Below, in pieces: positions 2,195 through 6,148 of a stretch of DNA of 64,000 nt. Made by a program: the position numbers and the translations under genes. Source of the stretch: an uncultured Roseobacter sp. (lineage in GTDB: Bacteria > Pseudomonadota > Alphaproteobacteria > Rhodobacterales > Rhodobacteraceae). Position 1 is the first letter of the stretch. The number at the start of each line of letters is the position of its first letter. Under the pieces are notes generated by a model, which was given only the letters and a program-made list of their open reading frames with translations, searched no databases and had not been told where the DNA came from. The stretch lies in assembly GCF_947495275.1 (NCBI RefSeq), contig NZ_CANLYL010000001.1:310001-374000 (forward strand), written 5' to 3'.

Positions 2195-3244
2195 CTAGAC
2201 CTCTGCTCGCGAGAAATCCTCGAAGAATGCGCTGAACCTTTCCGAGGATTGTTCGGCACCACTCAGAATTTCGACACCCTCAGAACCAACCGCTTCGGCC
2301 ATGCCGTCGCGCATTTGAGCCCAGTTGCGGCTGCGGGCGGGGCCGAGATGAAACATGTATTCGGACATGGCGCGCAACGGTCCCTTACGGCCCGTATGAC
2401 GGCGGACATGTAACCCCTGCGCGGAAGGAATACCGGGAAAGGAAGATCGACCGGTAAGTTGCGCCCACCAGCTGGTGACAAGGTACTCATGGTAACAATC
2501 CCCGGCACCGTTGCCGTTGGGTGCCAGAACAAAACCACCCATTTCCTGCGCAATCCAGTTTTCCCAGATGTCACTGGGCACCTGCCCTGCGAACCGCATG
2601 GCAACGCAAATCTCTGCAAGAAGGTCAATGTCCTGATCGAGAAAGGCCAGAAGGCCTGCATATTCGAGGCTGGCAATCGCCTGCTCCCCCAAATGAGGGT
2701 TGGTTACCCCGTAATCTGAGAGGTAGAACACGATGTGGGTAAGTTCATATGTGGCCTTCTTGTTCGGCAGGGCGAAAGTTTCAGACCGATCAACGAATGC
2801 GTGCAACCGGTTCCACAAGGCTTCTTCGTCAGCTTTCACCTCACGCCGCGCCATCAGGCGATATGCTTCGGCACGTTGAAGGTCTGATAATTCTGCTTCG
2901 ACAAGTCCCATTTCCGCGACCCATTGGCATAAGGACGCCCCCTTGTCGCCATCGATTCCAAGGTCCTCAAGATCAAGGCAAATGGACAACAAAAACCTGT
3001 AATATTGTGGGAAAAACCGCAATCTCTCTTCGAGCCCCTGATACACCCGCTCATAGGGTGCTAATGCCGCCTCCGACAAAGTGGCTCCGCTGGAGGCCAG
3101 TACGTTGAGAACTTCGGCGTTTTCCTTCAGCCAGAAAACGTCATCGGGTGATCGGCGGTTACAAGCAAAATTGTGTAGCAAAAGGGCCTGGCGGTCAGCC
3201 AGAGCCGGTCTGCGCGGCAGACCCAAAGAGACGACGTTAGACAT
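2195..3244 (-). CDS. Uncharacterised helical protein paired with the repeat peptide
   Basis: A 349-residue soluble protein with no signal peptide or membrane segment. It is rich in predicted helices and carries two eye-catching motifs: ELTHIVFYLSDYG near residues 167-179 and AGDCYHEYLVTSWW near 247-260, each with a conserved-looking histidine next to aromatic residues. From memory this resembles a Rhodobacterales-restricted domain of unknown function (possibly DUF6902), which I cannot verify. The ATG at 3244 has an AAGGAAG ribosome site. It lies 93 bases downstream of the repeat-peptide gene on the same strand with an imperfect hairpin between them, as often seen between a peptide gene and its processing or binding partner. 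The function is not known; an enzyme, receptor or immunity role are all open. Confidence 0.7.
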   Translation of the reverse strand: MSNVVSLGLPRRPALADRQALLLHNFACNRRSPDDVFWLKENAEVLNVLASSGATLSEAALAPYERVYQGLEERLRFFPQYYRFLLSICLDLEDLGIDGDKGASLCQWVAEMGLVEAELSDLQRAEAYRLMARREVKADEEALWNRLHAFVDRSETFALPNKKATYELTHIVFYLSDYGVTNPHLGEQAIASLEYAGLLAFLDQDIDLLAEICVAMRFAGQVPSDIWENWIAQEMGGFVLAPNGNGAGDCYHEYLVTSWWAQLTGRSSFPGIPSAQGLHVRRHTGRKGPLRAMSEYMFHLGPARSRNWAQMRDGMAEAVGSEGVEILSGAEQSSERFSAFFEDFSRAEV

Positions 3245-3292
3245 GGGGGTTCTTCCTTTGTCCTAAGGATCTGCCGCACAAGGCTGTTGATC

Positions 3293-3321
3293 GGGCCAAG
3301 GTCCATTGCGGACTTGGGCCC
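3293..3321 (-). terminator. Imperfect hairpin between the repeat-peptide gene and its downstream partner (attenuator-like)
   Basis: GGGCCAAGGTCC at 3293-3304 can pair with GGACTTGGGCCC at 3310-3321 with small bulges around a 5-base loop. No T-run follows on the minus strand, so it is more likely an attenuation or RNA-stability element than a full terminator. Such elements commonly let an upstream peptide gene be expressed more strongly than the gene after it; that role is inference here. Confidence 0.4.
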
Positions 3322-3337
3322 AGCCAATCAGGTCGGG

Positions 3338-3619
3338 TTACATGGAGGTTGTGAACAGCCCCGTTGCATCACCCGAAAACGCATCTTTACCGGCAACCAT
3401 ACTGGTGGTGAATTGACCGGTCTCTGCCCCTGTCAGAGTATCTGCGGATGGGCCCATTGATGTGGTAAAAAGCTCAGTGCCATGACCGCTCATCATATCG
3501 GTACCAGAAGGTGCCATACTTGTTGTGAAAAGAGCGGTTCCAGCGCCACTGTGCAGGTCATTTTCAGACCCGAAGATATCTTCAGAAACCATAGCTGCGG
3601 CAAGTGCGTTCGTCTTCAT
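3338..3619 (-). CDS. Small four-repeat peptide, FTTSM repeats (uncharacterised, precursor-like)
   Basis: A 93-residue protein made of a short N-terminal segment (MKTNALAAAMVSEDIFGSEN) and four repeats of 19-20 residues, each ending in FTTSM at residues 31-35, 51-55, 70-74 and 89-93; the stop codon directly follows the last repeat. The repeat consensus is roughly D-x-x-[ST]-G-x-x-T-x-x-F-T-T-S-M. The serine in the motif is encoded by TCC, AGT, TCA and AGT in the four copies, so the amino acids are kept while codons have diverged, which argues for real selection on the protein. It has an AAAGGG ribosome site before ATG 3619. No cysteine is present. The multi-core layout recalls ribosomal peptide precursors, but no known modification enzyme is adjacent. 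A DUF number (possibly DUF6749) may exist; unverified. Confidence 0.75.
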   Translation of the reverse strand: MKTNALAAAMVSEDIFGSENDLHSGAGTALFTTSMAPSGTDMMSGHGTELFTTSMGPSADTLTGAETGQFTTSMVAGKDAFSGDATGLFTTSM

Positions 3620-3698
3620 ATCATATCCCTTTCAAATGAAGTTTTGTTCGCTCTTTCACGCTTGCCCGTTTAAGGAGAGTTTCCAAGAATTATTCGCG

Positions 3699-3714
3699 TT
3701 AACAATGTGTTAAC
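3699..3714. promoter_or_regulatory. CtrA-type box TTAA-N7-TTAAC
   Basis: TTAACAATGTGTTAAC matches the alphaproteobacterial CtrA consensus exactly, with 7 bases between the TTAA halves. It lies 80-95 bases upstream of the repeat-peptide start codon at 3619, a position suited to control of that gene. Binding by CtrA is inferred from the motif only. Confidence 0.55.
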
Positions 3715-3720
3715 CATTAC

Positions 3721-3729
3721 TTATCCACA
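3721..3729 (+). promoter_or_regulatory. DnaA-box-like nonamer TTATCCACA
   Basis: Exact match to the strong DnaA box consensus TTATNCACA, seven bases after the CtrA-type box. Its job here is unknown. Confidence 0.45.
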
Positions 3730-3797
3730 CGAACATTCCGTGTTAGCGCCAGACATTTTTGGAAAGTTCGACGCAGTAATCTTGGTTAATTTTTTTT

Positions 3798-3824
3798 TAT
3801 CCACAGAGGATAACTCTGTGGATA
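3798..3824. repeat. Perfect 11-base inverted repeat built from two facing DnaA-like boxes
   Basis: TATCCACAGAG (3798-3808) and CTCTGTGGATA (3814-3824) are exact reverse complements around the 5-base centre GATAA. The left arm is extended to TTATCCACA by the preceding T. It follows a run of eight T. Whether this is an operator, a DnaA site or a hairpin in a transcript is unclear. Confidence 0.6.
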
Positions 3825-3974
3825 TTAACCTTTTAAGCCCGATTTTCGTTAACCATTAACAAGAATCACCTTCGCCCGTTTCAGCTTTTCAGCCGGCGTG
3901 GAGGACTGCTTGGCCCTTGCTCTGGCGGCGCGGTTGGGCAATAGCTGAACAGGTCCGTGACAAGGAGCGCCCCC

Positions 3975-4757
3975 ATGAAGATCGCCACATTCAACATCAA
4001 CGGCATCAAAGCCCGGATTGATGCGCTTCCCGCATGGCTCGATGAAGCCCAGCCAGACGTCGCTATCTTGCAGGAAATCAAGTCCGTGGATGAAGGATTT
4101 CCTTCCGAGATATTCGAGGAACGGGGCTTTAATGTCGCCACCCACGGGCAGAAGAGCTTCAATGGCGTCGCCATATTATCCAAGCGCCCGCTGGAGGATG
4201 TCACGCGGGGCCTGCCGGGGGATGACAGCGATGAACAGGCCCGCTGGATCGAAGCCACGGTCATGGGAGATACGCATCCTGTTCGTATTTGTGGTCTGTA
4301 TTTGCCCAATGGCAATCCAGCGCCGGGCCCGAAGTACGATTACAAACTATCTTGGATGGCGCGTCTGCTAGATCATGCGCAATCGATGCTGGCCAGTGAA
4401 ACGCCGTTCCTGATGGCCGGGGATTACAACATCATCCCGCAAGTGGAGGATGCAGCAAAGCCAGACAGCTGGCGCGAGGACGCATTATTTCGGCTGGAAA
4501 GCCGTGCGGCATTTCGAAGATTGCTCAATCTCGGTCTGACAGAAGCCTTCCGGGCGCGCACCGCCGGACCCGGGCACTATAGTTTCTGGGACTATCAAGC
4601 CGGCGCGTGGAACCGAAATAACGGCATTCGCATCGATCATTTCCTGCTGTGCCCGCAGGTGGCCGACATGCTGCAGGACTGCCAGATCGACAAAGAAGTG
4701 CGCGGCCGTGACAAGCCTTCGGATCACGTTCCCGTCTGGGTAGAGCTTGCCGCCTGA
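3975..4757 (+). CDS. xth: Exodeoxyribonuclease III
   Basis: AP endonuclease and 3'-5' exonuclease of base excision repair. The 260-residue length matches the family. The start MKIATFNINGIKAR, the metal-binding Glu in ILQEIKS, the GLYLPNGNP block, GDYNIIP (catalytic Asp and Asn), and the terminal SDHVPVWVEL are all present. The ATG at 3975 is chosen because AAGGAG lies at 3962-3967; an in-frame codon at 3957 would overlap that site. The gene diverges from the repeat-peptide gene across the CtrA/DnaA-box region. Function is firm; regulation is not known. Confidence 0.95.
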   Translation: MKIATFNINGIKARIDALPAWLDEAQPDVAILQEIKSVDEGFPSEIFEERGFNVATHGQKSFNGVAILSKRPLEDVTRGLPGDDSDEQARWIEATVMGDTHPVRICGLYLPNGNPAPGPKYDYKLSWMARLLDHAQSMLASETPFLMAGDYNIIPQVEDAAKPDSWREDALFRLESRAAFRRLLNLGLTEAFRARTAGPGHYSFWDYQAGAWNRNNGIRIDHFLLCPQVADMLQDCQIDKEVRGRDKPSDHVPVWVELAA

Positions 4758-4846: not shown

Positions 4847-5740
4847 ATGATACGATCACATACTCCGCCGAACCTGATCCCCGTTCCAGCATCTGCACGA
4901 TCTGGACAACAGCGACAGAAAACCGCGCCGAATAGCGGCATTGATGCGCTGCAACGGCAGGCGGATGAAAGTCAGATCGTAGGTCACTTGCAGCTGCTCC
5001 AACGCAAGGCTGACAGCCACCGCTCCCGCCTTGCAGCCGGTGGTCCCCCGATACAGCGTGAAAAGAATATCGGGTTGGGTTTCACCGATCTGGAGAATGA
5101 CAAATACGGCGAAGATGCATTCGGCAAGTCAAGCAGTTCAAAGGGCAATCTTGACAAGTTCCGCACCGAAGTTAACGCCGAAGGCCCCGGCGCGTTTGTC
5201 AAAGGGCTGGCCAGCCAACGCCAAAGCGGGCAGATACAGGGTATCTTCACAGGCGGCATCAAGAAGGCCATGGAACAATCCCTGACAATCAAACAAAACC
5301 TCGCGGGATTTACGCAGGATCAGATCGACCACGCGCGCAATCACCCGCCCATGTTGGACGAAGACGAGACCCGGGCGGCGCAACTCGCCGTTCCGGTTTT
5401 CAAGGACATGCCGGGCACATCGGCGGAACTTTGGAGCGCGATGAGTGATGTCGACCCGCCACTGGGGTTCAGCAAGGGTAATGCGGCGATTTCGGTTTGG
5501 GAACTGAGCCACATGCTGCACAACGAGACACTTTTCGCCAAGACCGAATTTTATGACTTCAACGCGTCAGACGATGTGCCGAATGCGGTGCCGCTGTCTC
5601 CGCAGCAGCTTGAATCGCGCGGCATCGAATTGAGCGAAGAGGACCAGAAAACACTTGCCGAACTCGGGATCGAAGCCCCAACGGGCCGCTCAAACGGCAA
5701 TTGGTTCACAAATTTGTTCAAATGTTGCTTTGGTGGGTAG
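4847..5740 (+). CDS. Toxin-like protein with eCIS-effector-style N-terminus
   Basis: A 297-residue protein of unknown activity. Residues about 36-70 read as two copies of an LQRQAD / LQLLQRKAD heptad-like motif followed by PPIQREKN, a pattern I know from the N-terminal prologue of proteins associated with extracellular contractile injection systems and other DUF4157-type polymorphic toxins. The following DUF4157 core itself was not seen. The middle and C-terminal parts are polar and globular, with WELSHMLHNETLF near residues 220-232, and the chain ends in FTNLFKCCFGG, an unusual hydrophobic tail with adjacent cysteines. The ATG at 4847 has an AGAGGTTG site. A small gene follows after 6 bases. 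No injection-system genes are in this window, so the effector reading is inference. Confidence 0.6.
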   Translation: MIRSHTPPNLIPVPASARSGQQRQKTAPNSGIDALQRQADESQIVGHLQLLQRKADSHRSRLAAGGPPIQREKNIGLGFTDLENDKYGEDAFGKSSSSKGNLDKFRTEVNAEGPGAFVKGLASQRQSGQIQGIFTGGIKKAMEQSLTIKQNLAGFTQDQIDHARNHPPMLDEDETRAAQLAVPVFKDMPGTSAELWSAMSDVDPPLGFSKGNAAISVWELSHMLHNETLFAKTEFYDFNASDDVPNAVPLSPQQLESRGIELSEEDQKTLAELGIEAPTGRSNGNWFTNLFKCCFGG

Positions 5741-5746
5741 ACCCAG

Positions 5747-6148
5747 ATGACTACGCGAAACGATCAACAGGTGCAGATTGAGATGATGCGCCAAGAGGCC
5801 CAGGTCCTCTTTGTGCAGGTGCTGCAAGACGGGGCCTTCCAACGCTTGGGGGCCAGGGATTTGCGGACTTCAGATGGCGTGCTGGTCAAAGGTCATCTTG
5901 AACCAGACACCACCCGCCGTCTCTTCGAGGCTATCCCGGACGATTTTCGCGAAACTGCCGGACACTACAACGATCCCGACGCCACAGGCGACCGTATGGG
6001 ACTAAGCATCATCCTGCGCCGCAACGGGACTGAAGAGGTGTTTCAAATGGTCTACGGCAGCCAATCGACCGGGCCGACCCAGGAGATCAAGGATTTTGTG
6101 ATCACCGCGATACAGCTGACAGAACCAGCCTATCAGGCACATCTCTGA
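5747..6148 (+). CDS. Small acidic partner of the toxin-like protein (possible immunity or chaperone)
   Basis: A 133-residue soluble protein with no signal peptide, cysteines or recognisable motif; it reads as a compact alpha/beta fold with an acidic bias. It begins 6 bases after the upstream gene, so the two are almost surely co-transcribed. In polymorphic toxin loci a small gene in this position often encodes the immunity protein, but here that is a guess from layout. It could equally be a chaperone for the upstream protein. It ends 18 bases before the convergent HNH gene. Confidence 0.55.
   Translation: MTTRNDQQVQIEMMRQEAQVLFVQVLQDGAFQRLGARDLRTSDGVLVKGHLEPDTTRRLFEAIPDDFRETAGHYNDPDATGDRMGLSIILRRNGTEEVFQMVYGSQSTGPTQEIKDFVITAIQLTEPAYQAHL

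Follow-up and report, generated by a model that had tools for sequence, protein, structure and literature searches.

A 64,000-nucleotide stretch of DNA from an uncultured Roseobacter sp. (contig NZ_CANLYL010000001.1, positions 310,001 to 374,000 of the forward strand; hereafter, the window) contains a gene for a protein of 93 amino acids with four copies of the pentapeptide FTTSM, followed by a gene for a 349-amino-acid protein of family DUF6902. The interpretation that we favor, and consider probable with some reserve, is that both genes form a multicore system of the RiPP type (ribosomally synthesized and post-translationally modified peptide), in which DUF6902 modifies, perhaps epimerizes, each core. 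What the analysis shows is the existence of a precursor family, its linkage to DUF6902, selective constraint on the core, lack of a precursor at the two loci whose DUF6902 has lost conserved residues, and homology between DUF6902 and DUF6895.

The precursor gene (3338..3619, minus strand) starts with ATG, and its product has a leader (residues 1-24) and four units. The FTTSM cores, all encoded on the minus strand, are found at residues 31-35 (3515..3529; codons TTC ACA ACA AGT ATG), 51-55 (3455..3469; TTT ACC ACA TCA ATG), 70-74 (3398..3412; TTC ACC ACC AGT ATG) and 89-93 (3341..3355; TTC ACA ACC TCC ATG). They are spaced 20, 19 and 19 residues apart; the fourth copy forms the C-terminus of the protein, and the stop codon (3338-3340) comes immediately after it. 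A preliminary description made from the sequence alone had reported the 93-residue open reading frame (ORF), its four FTTSM repeats of 19-20 residues and the stop right after the last one, all of which was borne out. The serine codons were listed there as TCC, AGT, TCA and AGT, the same set in the direction opposite to the transcript (AGT, TCA, AGT, TCC). Because the codons of the cores differ, recent duplication of a unit was rejected as the source of their identity; the view that protein-level selection is the better explanation is well supported by these codon differences and by the substitution rates given below. The absence of cysteine holds for the window precursor only, as relatives have cores such as FTTSC, FTNWC and MMCCS. 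No Pfam or NCBIfam match was obtained for the window precursor at E values up to 1, reading of its sequence revealed no obvious secretion signal (no predictor was run), and its predicted fold is of low confidence (predicted local distance difference test score, pLDDT, of 44.4, with only 14 sequences). What is found here is a genetically encoded precursor with a leader and repeated cores, as expected of a multicore RiPP.

The DUF6902 gene (2195..3244, minus strand) lies 93 bases downstream of the precursor gene on the same strand, and its product is a putative core-modifying enzyme. In a Pfam scan, the protein matched PF21843 (DUF6902) with an E value of 1e-140 and also PF21836 (DUF6895) with an E value of 1.9e-20. 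The earlier remark that the neighborhood lacks a known modification enzyme must be revised in this light: the adjacent protein is a DUF6902 member homologous to DUF6895, with a putative enzyme role. Its predicted structure is confident (pLDDT 93.5) and mainly helical; a search by sequence gave no relative of solved structure (best E 1.3). A structural match to the alpha/alpha toroid fold (terpene cyclase, prenyltransferase) may be considered as well.

Two sets of 80 loci were used for comparison. The drawn loci represent all DUF6902 genomes of the window's family apart from that of the window itself and G139, a contig-edge fragment. The named loci are the best 80 of 377 relatives found and lean towards Roseobacter; they include Roseobacter, Sulfitobacter, Ruegeria pomeroyi, Phaeobacter, Roseovarius, Shimia and Tateyamaria. 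Sixteen named loci have the same sequences as drawn ones, and distinct proteins were used for tree and residue counts. When 295 genomes of the family were searched for DUF6902 and for a repeat profile (A2; paired units, 48 rows, from the window and the drawn loci), DUF6902 was detected in 82 genomes and the profile in 76, all of them among the 82. An independent control is provided by the 213 genomes without DUF6902, none of which matched the profile. DUF6902 without a profile match was found in six genomes: diverged repeats are still visible in three of them (G099, G264 and G283; MMCCS, MMSCS and SPSC), and the others are G139, G288 (locus L064) and G039 (L081). At the locus level, a position-specific scoring matrix (PSSM) for single units picked up repeats in the region preceding DUF6902 at 75 of the 80 drawn loci (in L067 by a single unit), and repeats were recognized by eye at three more (L030, L065 and L080), raising the total to 78/80. 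Among the named loci, the precursor is present in 79/80, the exception being a contig edge with only 85 bases upstream (L155). Since the PSSM and the profile were built from drawn-locus units, the drawn and named counts are partly circular. In a class-wide sample of 385 genomes, DUF6902 was above the cut-off in four, all of the window's family, and one weak match was seen in another family (G297). DUF6902 is strictly linked to the precursor, and would be its modifying enzyme.

Of 144 distinct DUF6902 proteins, 141 keep all five of the residues that in the window protein are H170, D207, E211, D249 and H252. One exception (L073) is cut by the contig, and in the other two (L064 and L081) His and acidic residues of the conserved set are gone; these two are the only DUF6902 loci without a visible precursor. 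Cassettes at both loci are probably decaying, and may be useful as natural negative controls.

Precursors of relatives have the same anatomy with different cores. In the named loci, detected copies range from 2 to 15 (median 6) with a spacing of mostly 21 or 20 residues; the highest number detected is 20, in L003. The pentapeptide varies by lineage (for instance FSSGS, FTSWS, FTSGL or FTTSC) and is mostly constant inside one precursor: 65 of 79 named precursors have identical core residues 2-5 in every detected copy. Dominant cores in 137 distinct loci are FSSGS (33), FTTSM (15), FTSGS, FTSWS and FTTSC (9 each), together with 34 rarer types. Core type tracks the DUF6902 tree, with 56 changes on 137 distinct proteins, whereas each of 200 label shuffles required 93 or more. 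In ten gap-free Roseobacter orthologues, the ratio of non-synonymous to synonymous substitution rates (dN/dS) was 0.005 for the core, 0.088 for the six preceding residues (the arm), 0.158 for the linker and 0.282 for the leader. Inside a single precursor, the non-synonymous divergence (pN) of FTTSM comes out too high, since any change between TCN and AGY serine codons passes through non-synonymous steps. These observations support strong selection on the precursor-enzyme pair. The multi-core, precursor-like layout proposed in the preliminary description also gains solid support from the repeats of relatives and from selection. That description had suggested counting repeat number and co-occurrence with the adjacent 349-residue protein, and had taken a lack of homologs with variable repeat number beyond close relatives, or of a link to the adjacent gene, as evidence against its proposal. 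Neither was observed, as detected copies vary from 2 to 20 across genera and linkage is near-total.

The end of the protein coincides exactly with core residue 5 in 67 of 78 precursors (the window and 77 of the 79 named ones, as two whose start could not be assigned were left out), which suggests that core residue 5 is the C-terminus of the product. Individual precursors offer further observations. In Ruegeria pomeroyi (L108), five FSTSC units look recently duplicated (synonymous divergence, pS, of the core 0.0). Locus L077 (728-1384) harbors two distinct precursor-like ORFs in tandem before one DUF6902 gene, with FTSGS-type and FGSSC-type cores. In a Pfam scan of eight relatives' precursors, a 22-residue repeat model was matched barely above its cut-off by one (L078), all other matches being below the curated cut-offs.

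A possible chemistry is suggested by DUF6895, which was searched in class (385) and phylum (319) samples. Outside the window's family, four members exceeded the cut-off (G595, G297, G765 and G834), and five matches below it were left aside. The H, D, E, D, H residues of DUF6902 are also found in four aligned DUF6895 proteins, and this coincidence, together with profile similarity, places DUF6902 in a DUF6895/DUF6902 superfamily. Small peptide ORFs adjoin DUF6895 at the four loci examined (L183, L184, L230 and L231). They hold a W-containing motif, with one or two copies or genes per locus, and neither Pfam nor NCBIfam gave a significant match to them. The motifs are of the GxxxxxW type, preceded by a common segment near xGIIx or xGIVx, and these ORFs are possibly a second unexplored peptide family. 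The title of a 2026 article (Shi et al., ACS Catal.), as cited in PMC13352647, names DUF6895 as a lasso-peptide epimerase. Homology to DUF6895, the two His and three acidic residues, and the frequent C-terminal position of the core suggest that the modification is an epimerization.

The cassette occupies a conserved chromosomal position. In the window, the precursor-DUF6902 pair is flanked by an erpA-like gene (plus strand) and xthA (plus strand), with dgt further out. Conservation is indicated by the presence of xthA in 73/80 and erpA in 67/80 drawn loci (loci of about 4 kb, some of them cut). A co-directional transporter gene follows DUF6902 in 61 of the 80 drawn loci, and was assigned to EamA by Pfam in the one case tested; erpA comes directly after DUF6902, as in the window, in 14, and the remaining five were undecidable. 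A transporter gene was found in 41/80 named loci, part of the other 39 being cut by the contig end. The products nearest the window cassette, seven scanned with Pfam and six with NCBIfam, are the precursor, DUF6902, a dGTPase, an ErpA-like protein, Xth and two without assignment; no established RiPP enzyme, dedicated protease or lasso biosynthesis gene (cyclase, protease or RiPP recognition element) was met among them. A mobile element was discarded, as DUF6902 gave no match in plasmid or phage collections. The spacer between the two genes (3245-3337, minus strand) can form a GC-rich hairpin, as it can in several relatives; 23 intergenic stretches were folded, and several of them show one. The hairpin might set the precursor:enzyme ratio; folding was done without a shuffle control, and no claim is therefore made.

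In the mechanism that we propose, the system would be made of two genes, or three in many relatives where the transporter is present. The 93-amino-acid protein would be a multicore precursor with a variable leader and tandem units, each unit consisting of a putative recognition arm, G-x-x-[TV]-x-[MLA], followed by the pentapeptide core, which hardly varies (FTTSM in the window), with looser linkers in between. DUF6902 would bind every unit and modify its core by acid/base peptide epimerization, possibly at the last core residue. Modified cores would probably be excised by a general protease, and exported where a gene of the DMT/EamA type (drug/metabolite transporter) is present.

Several points weigh against this interpretation. 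Catalysis, chemistry, processing, export and biological role are steps that we infer. The epimerase activity of DUF6895 comes from the title cited in PMC13352647, and the catalytic roles assigned to the five DUF6902 residues come from their conservation. The peptides linked to DUF6895 do not match the A2 repeat profile (negative scores); the arrangement is thus common to both families, and homology of the FTTSM units to those peptides was discarded as unsupported. Foldseek gave no significant solved relative of DUF6902 (best E 0.088), so epimerization gains no support from the fold. Coupled loss of the precursor and the conserved residues was observed at two loci only, and at one of them (L081) the protein has diverged to 28% identity with that of the window, which makes the alignment there less sure. 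Core residues 2-5 are not uniform across copies in 14/79 named precursors. Lastly, the window cassette has neither a transporter gene nor a protease gene, and the window genome contains no closer relative of the L002 transporter than one of 33% identity.

Three alternatives were considered. One is that DUF6902 acts on the repeats by a different chemistry such as dehydration, cyclization, hydroxylation or proteolysis, in which case the system would be of the RiPP type without D-residues. We regard this as quite possible; however, the sole activity named in the superfamily, according to the title cited in PMC13352647, is epimerization, and two conserved His with three acidic residues suit an acid/base mechanism. 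Another is that the repeat protein works uncut, as a flexible multi-site partner or scaffold bound or modified by DUF6902. The lack of a dedicated protease among the scanned neighbors and of a secretion signal obvious to the reader's eye fits such a role. We find it unlikely, nonetheless, as detected copies vary from 2 to 20 while the core is mostly fixed, the core is C-terminal in 67/78 precursors, a transporter gene is often next, and the precursor has no confident fold (from the 14 sequences mentioned above). The third alternative, that the repeats are low-complexity or chance sequence without function and DUF6902 is an unrelated neighbor, finds nothing in its favor except short repeat length, and was ruled out with a negligible margin of doubt by the strict co-occurrence, by repeats that persist from genus to genus with synonymous variation, and by the joint loss seen at two loci.

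Returning to the multicore interpretation, the region upstream of the precursor contains candidate regulatory sites, all on the minus strand. Two DnaA-box-like sites, TGTGGATAA, are found at 3797..3805 (conserved near -186 of precursor starts) and 3721..3729 (76 bp from the first); this 9-mer complements the DnaA box TTATCCACA. A TTAA-N7-TTAA sequence at 3699..3713, found mainly in the Roseobacter clade, presumably is a CtrA-like motif. A probable ribosome-binding site of the precursor gene, GAAAGGGA, can be read at 3626..3633. No sigma-70 promoter was found in window positions 3200-4000. Motifs were counted in the 75 named loci with a measurable upstream region (five were dropped); relatedness among these loci makes the counts non-independent, and distances are approximate, as start codons were picked by rule. 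At least one exact copy of TGTGGATAA or its complement is present in 59/75 regions and at least two in 38/75, typically as a pair near -186 and -110 and 76 bp apart. With up to one mismatch, 152 matches were found versus 5.8 expected from mononucleotide shuffles. TTAA-N7-TTAA occurs 24 times versus 0.4 expected, mostly in Roseobacter.

A search of the 295 whole genomes for the exact twin site gave 21 matches in 20 of them. Sixteen are at the cassette, which means that 16/82 DUF6902 genomes have the exact twin form. The other five (two in G142, and one each in G145, G293 and G088) are accompanied by neither the cassette nor its flanking genes, and the idea that the twin sites belong to xthA or erpA was rejected. 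Vicinity of a replication origin was ruled out as the reason for these sites in one genome, G141: dnaA lies at base 16 there, the sampled skew (20 samples of 20 kb each, noisy) reverses close by, and the cassette maps to 2.57 Mb in a total of 4.32 Mb. In the window genome, the dnaA family cut-off is passed by two full-length genes (G000:C3:374995-376335 and G000:C29:15376-16704), both dnaA-like.

The paired DnaA-box-like sites raise the question of whether peptide production follows replication, and a link of production to the cell cycle would be conceivable. A broader speculation, which we consider improbable, is that a short peptide, particular to each lineage and with an epimerized (D-) residue at its end, is produced by roseobacters from the multicopy precursor, its synthesis being tied to the cell cycle via the DnaA-like and CtrA-like sites. 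The core, constant within a lineage and changing along with DUF6902, would then serve as a recognition code: a peptide signal of Gram-negative marine bacteria.

Elsewhere in the window, an ORF of 297 amino acids (4847-5740, plus strand) without Pfam match is followed by one of 133 amino acids (5747-6148, plus strand). The start of the former, LQRQAD...LQRKA...IQR, is reminiscent of proteins linked to extracellular contractile injection systems, and the two ORFs could encode an effector and its partner.

The precursor-DUF6902 pair may be an unrecognized type of ribosomally made, enzyme-modified peptide system in marine roseobacters. As judged from listings, no earlier description of the system and nothing related under FTTSM or Roseobacter RiPPs was found in the literature searched, nor was any published work on DUF6902; word searches in two reviews or surveys, PMC9505594 and PMC8939145, returned no mention of it. 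If the proposal is correct, a widespread peptide-modification system would exist at one conserved chromosomal place in a sizeable group of marine bacteria of ecological importance. DUF6902 would acquire a function and a tie to the newly named DUF6895 epimerases, and the cores would provide natural tandem substrates for one enzyme.

Comparison with known systems reveals both likeness and difference. DUF6895 (PF21836) resembles DUF6902 in its profile match to the window protein, the same five residues and the neighboring small peptide ORF; in contrast, DUF6902 is a separate Pfam family whose candidate substrate is a tandem-repeat protein, and, none of the seven products scanned around the window cassette belongs to a lasso pathway. 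MslH, the epimerase of the lasso peptide MS-271, acts on the C-terminal residue of its precursor by two His/Asp pairs, as described in PMC10406935. Epimerization of a C-terminal residue by His and acidic residues is a mechanism that DUF6902 might mimic, and DUF6902 could be a convergent counterpart of MslH. According to the same source, however, the fold of MslH is calcineurin-like and contains Ca(II), whereas DUF6902 is mainly helical by prediction; no calcineurin-like metallophosphatase match was met for DUF6902 in Pfam. If the product were a peptide signal, the multicopy precursor would be reminiscent of that of yeast pheromone. Multicore precursors are known among RiPPs, including cyanobactins and some graspetides. 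The window precursor differs from them in having no Pfam or NCBIfam match and no established RiPP enzyme among its scanned neighbors, and resembles them in its leader, its several similar cores and the adjacent gene for a putative modifying enzyme.
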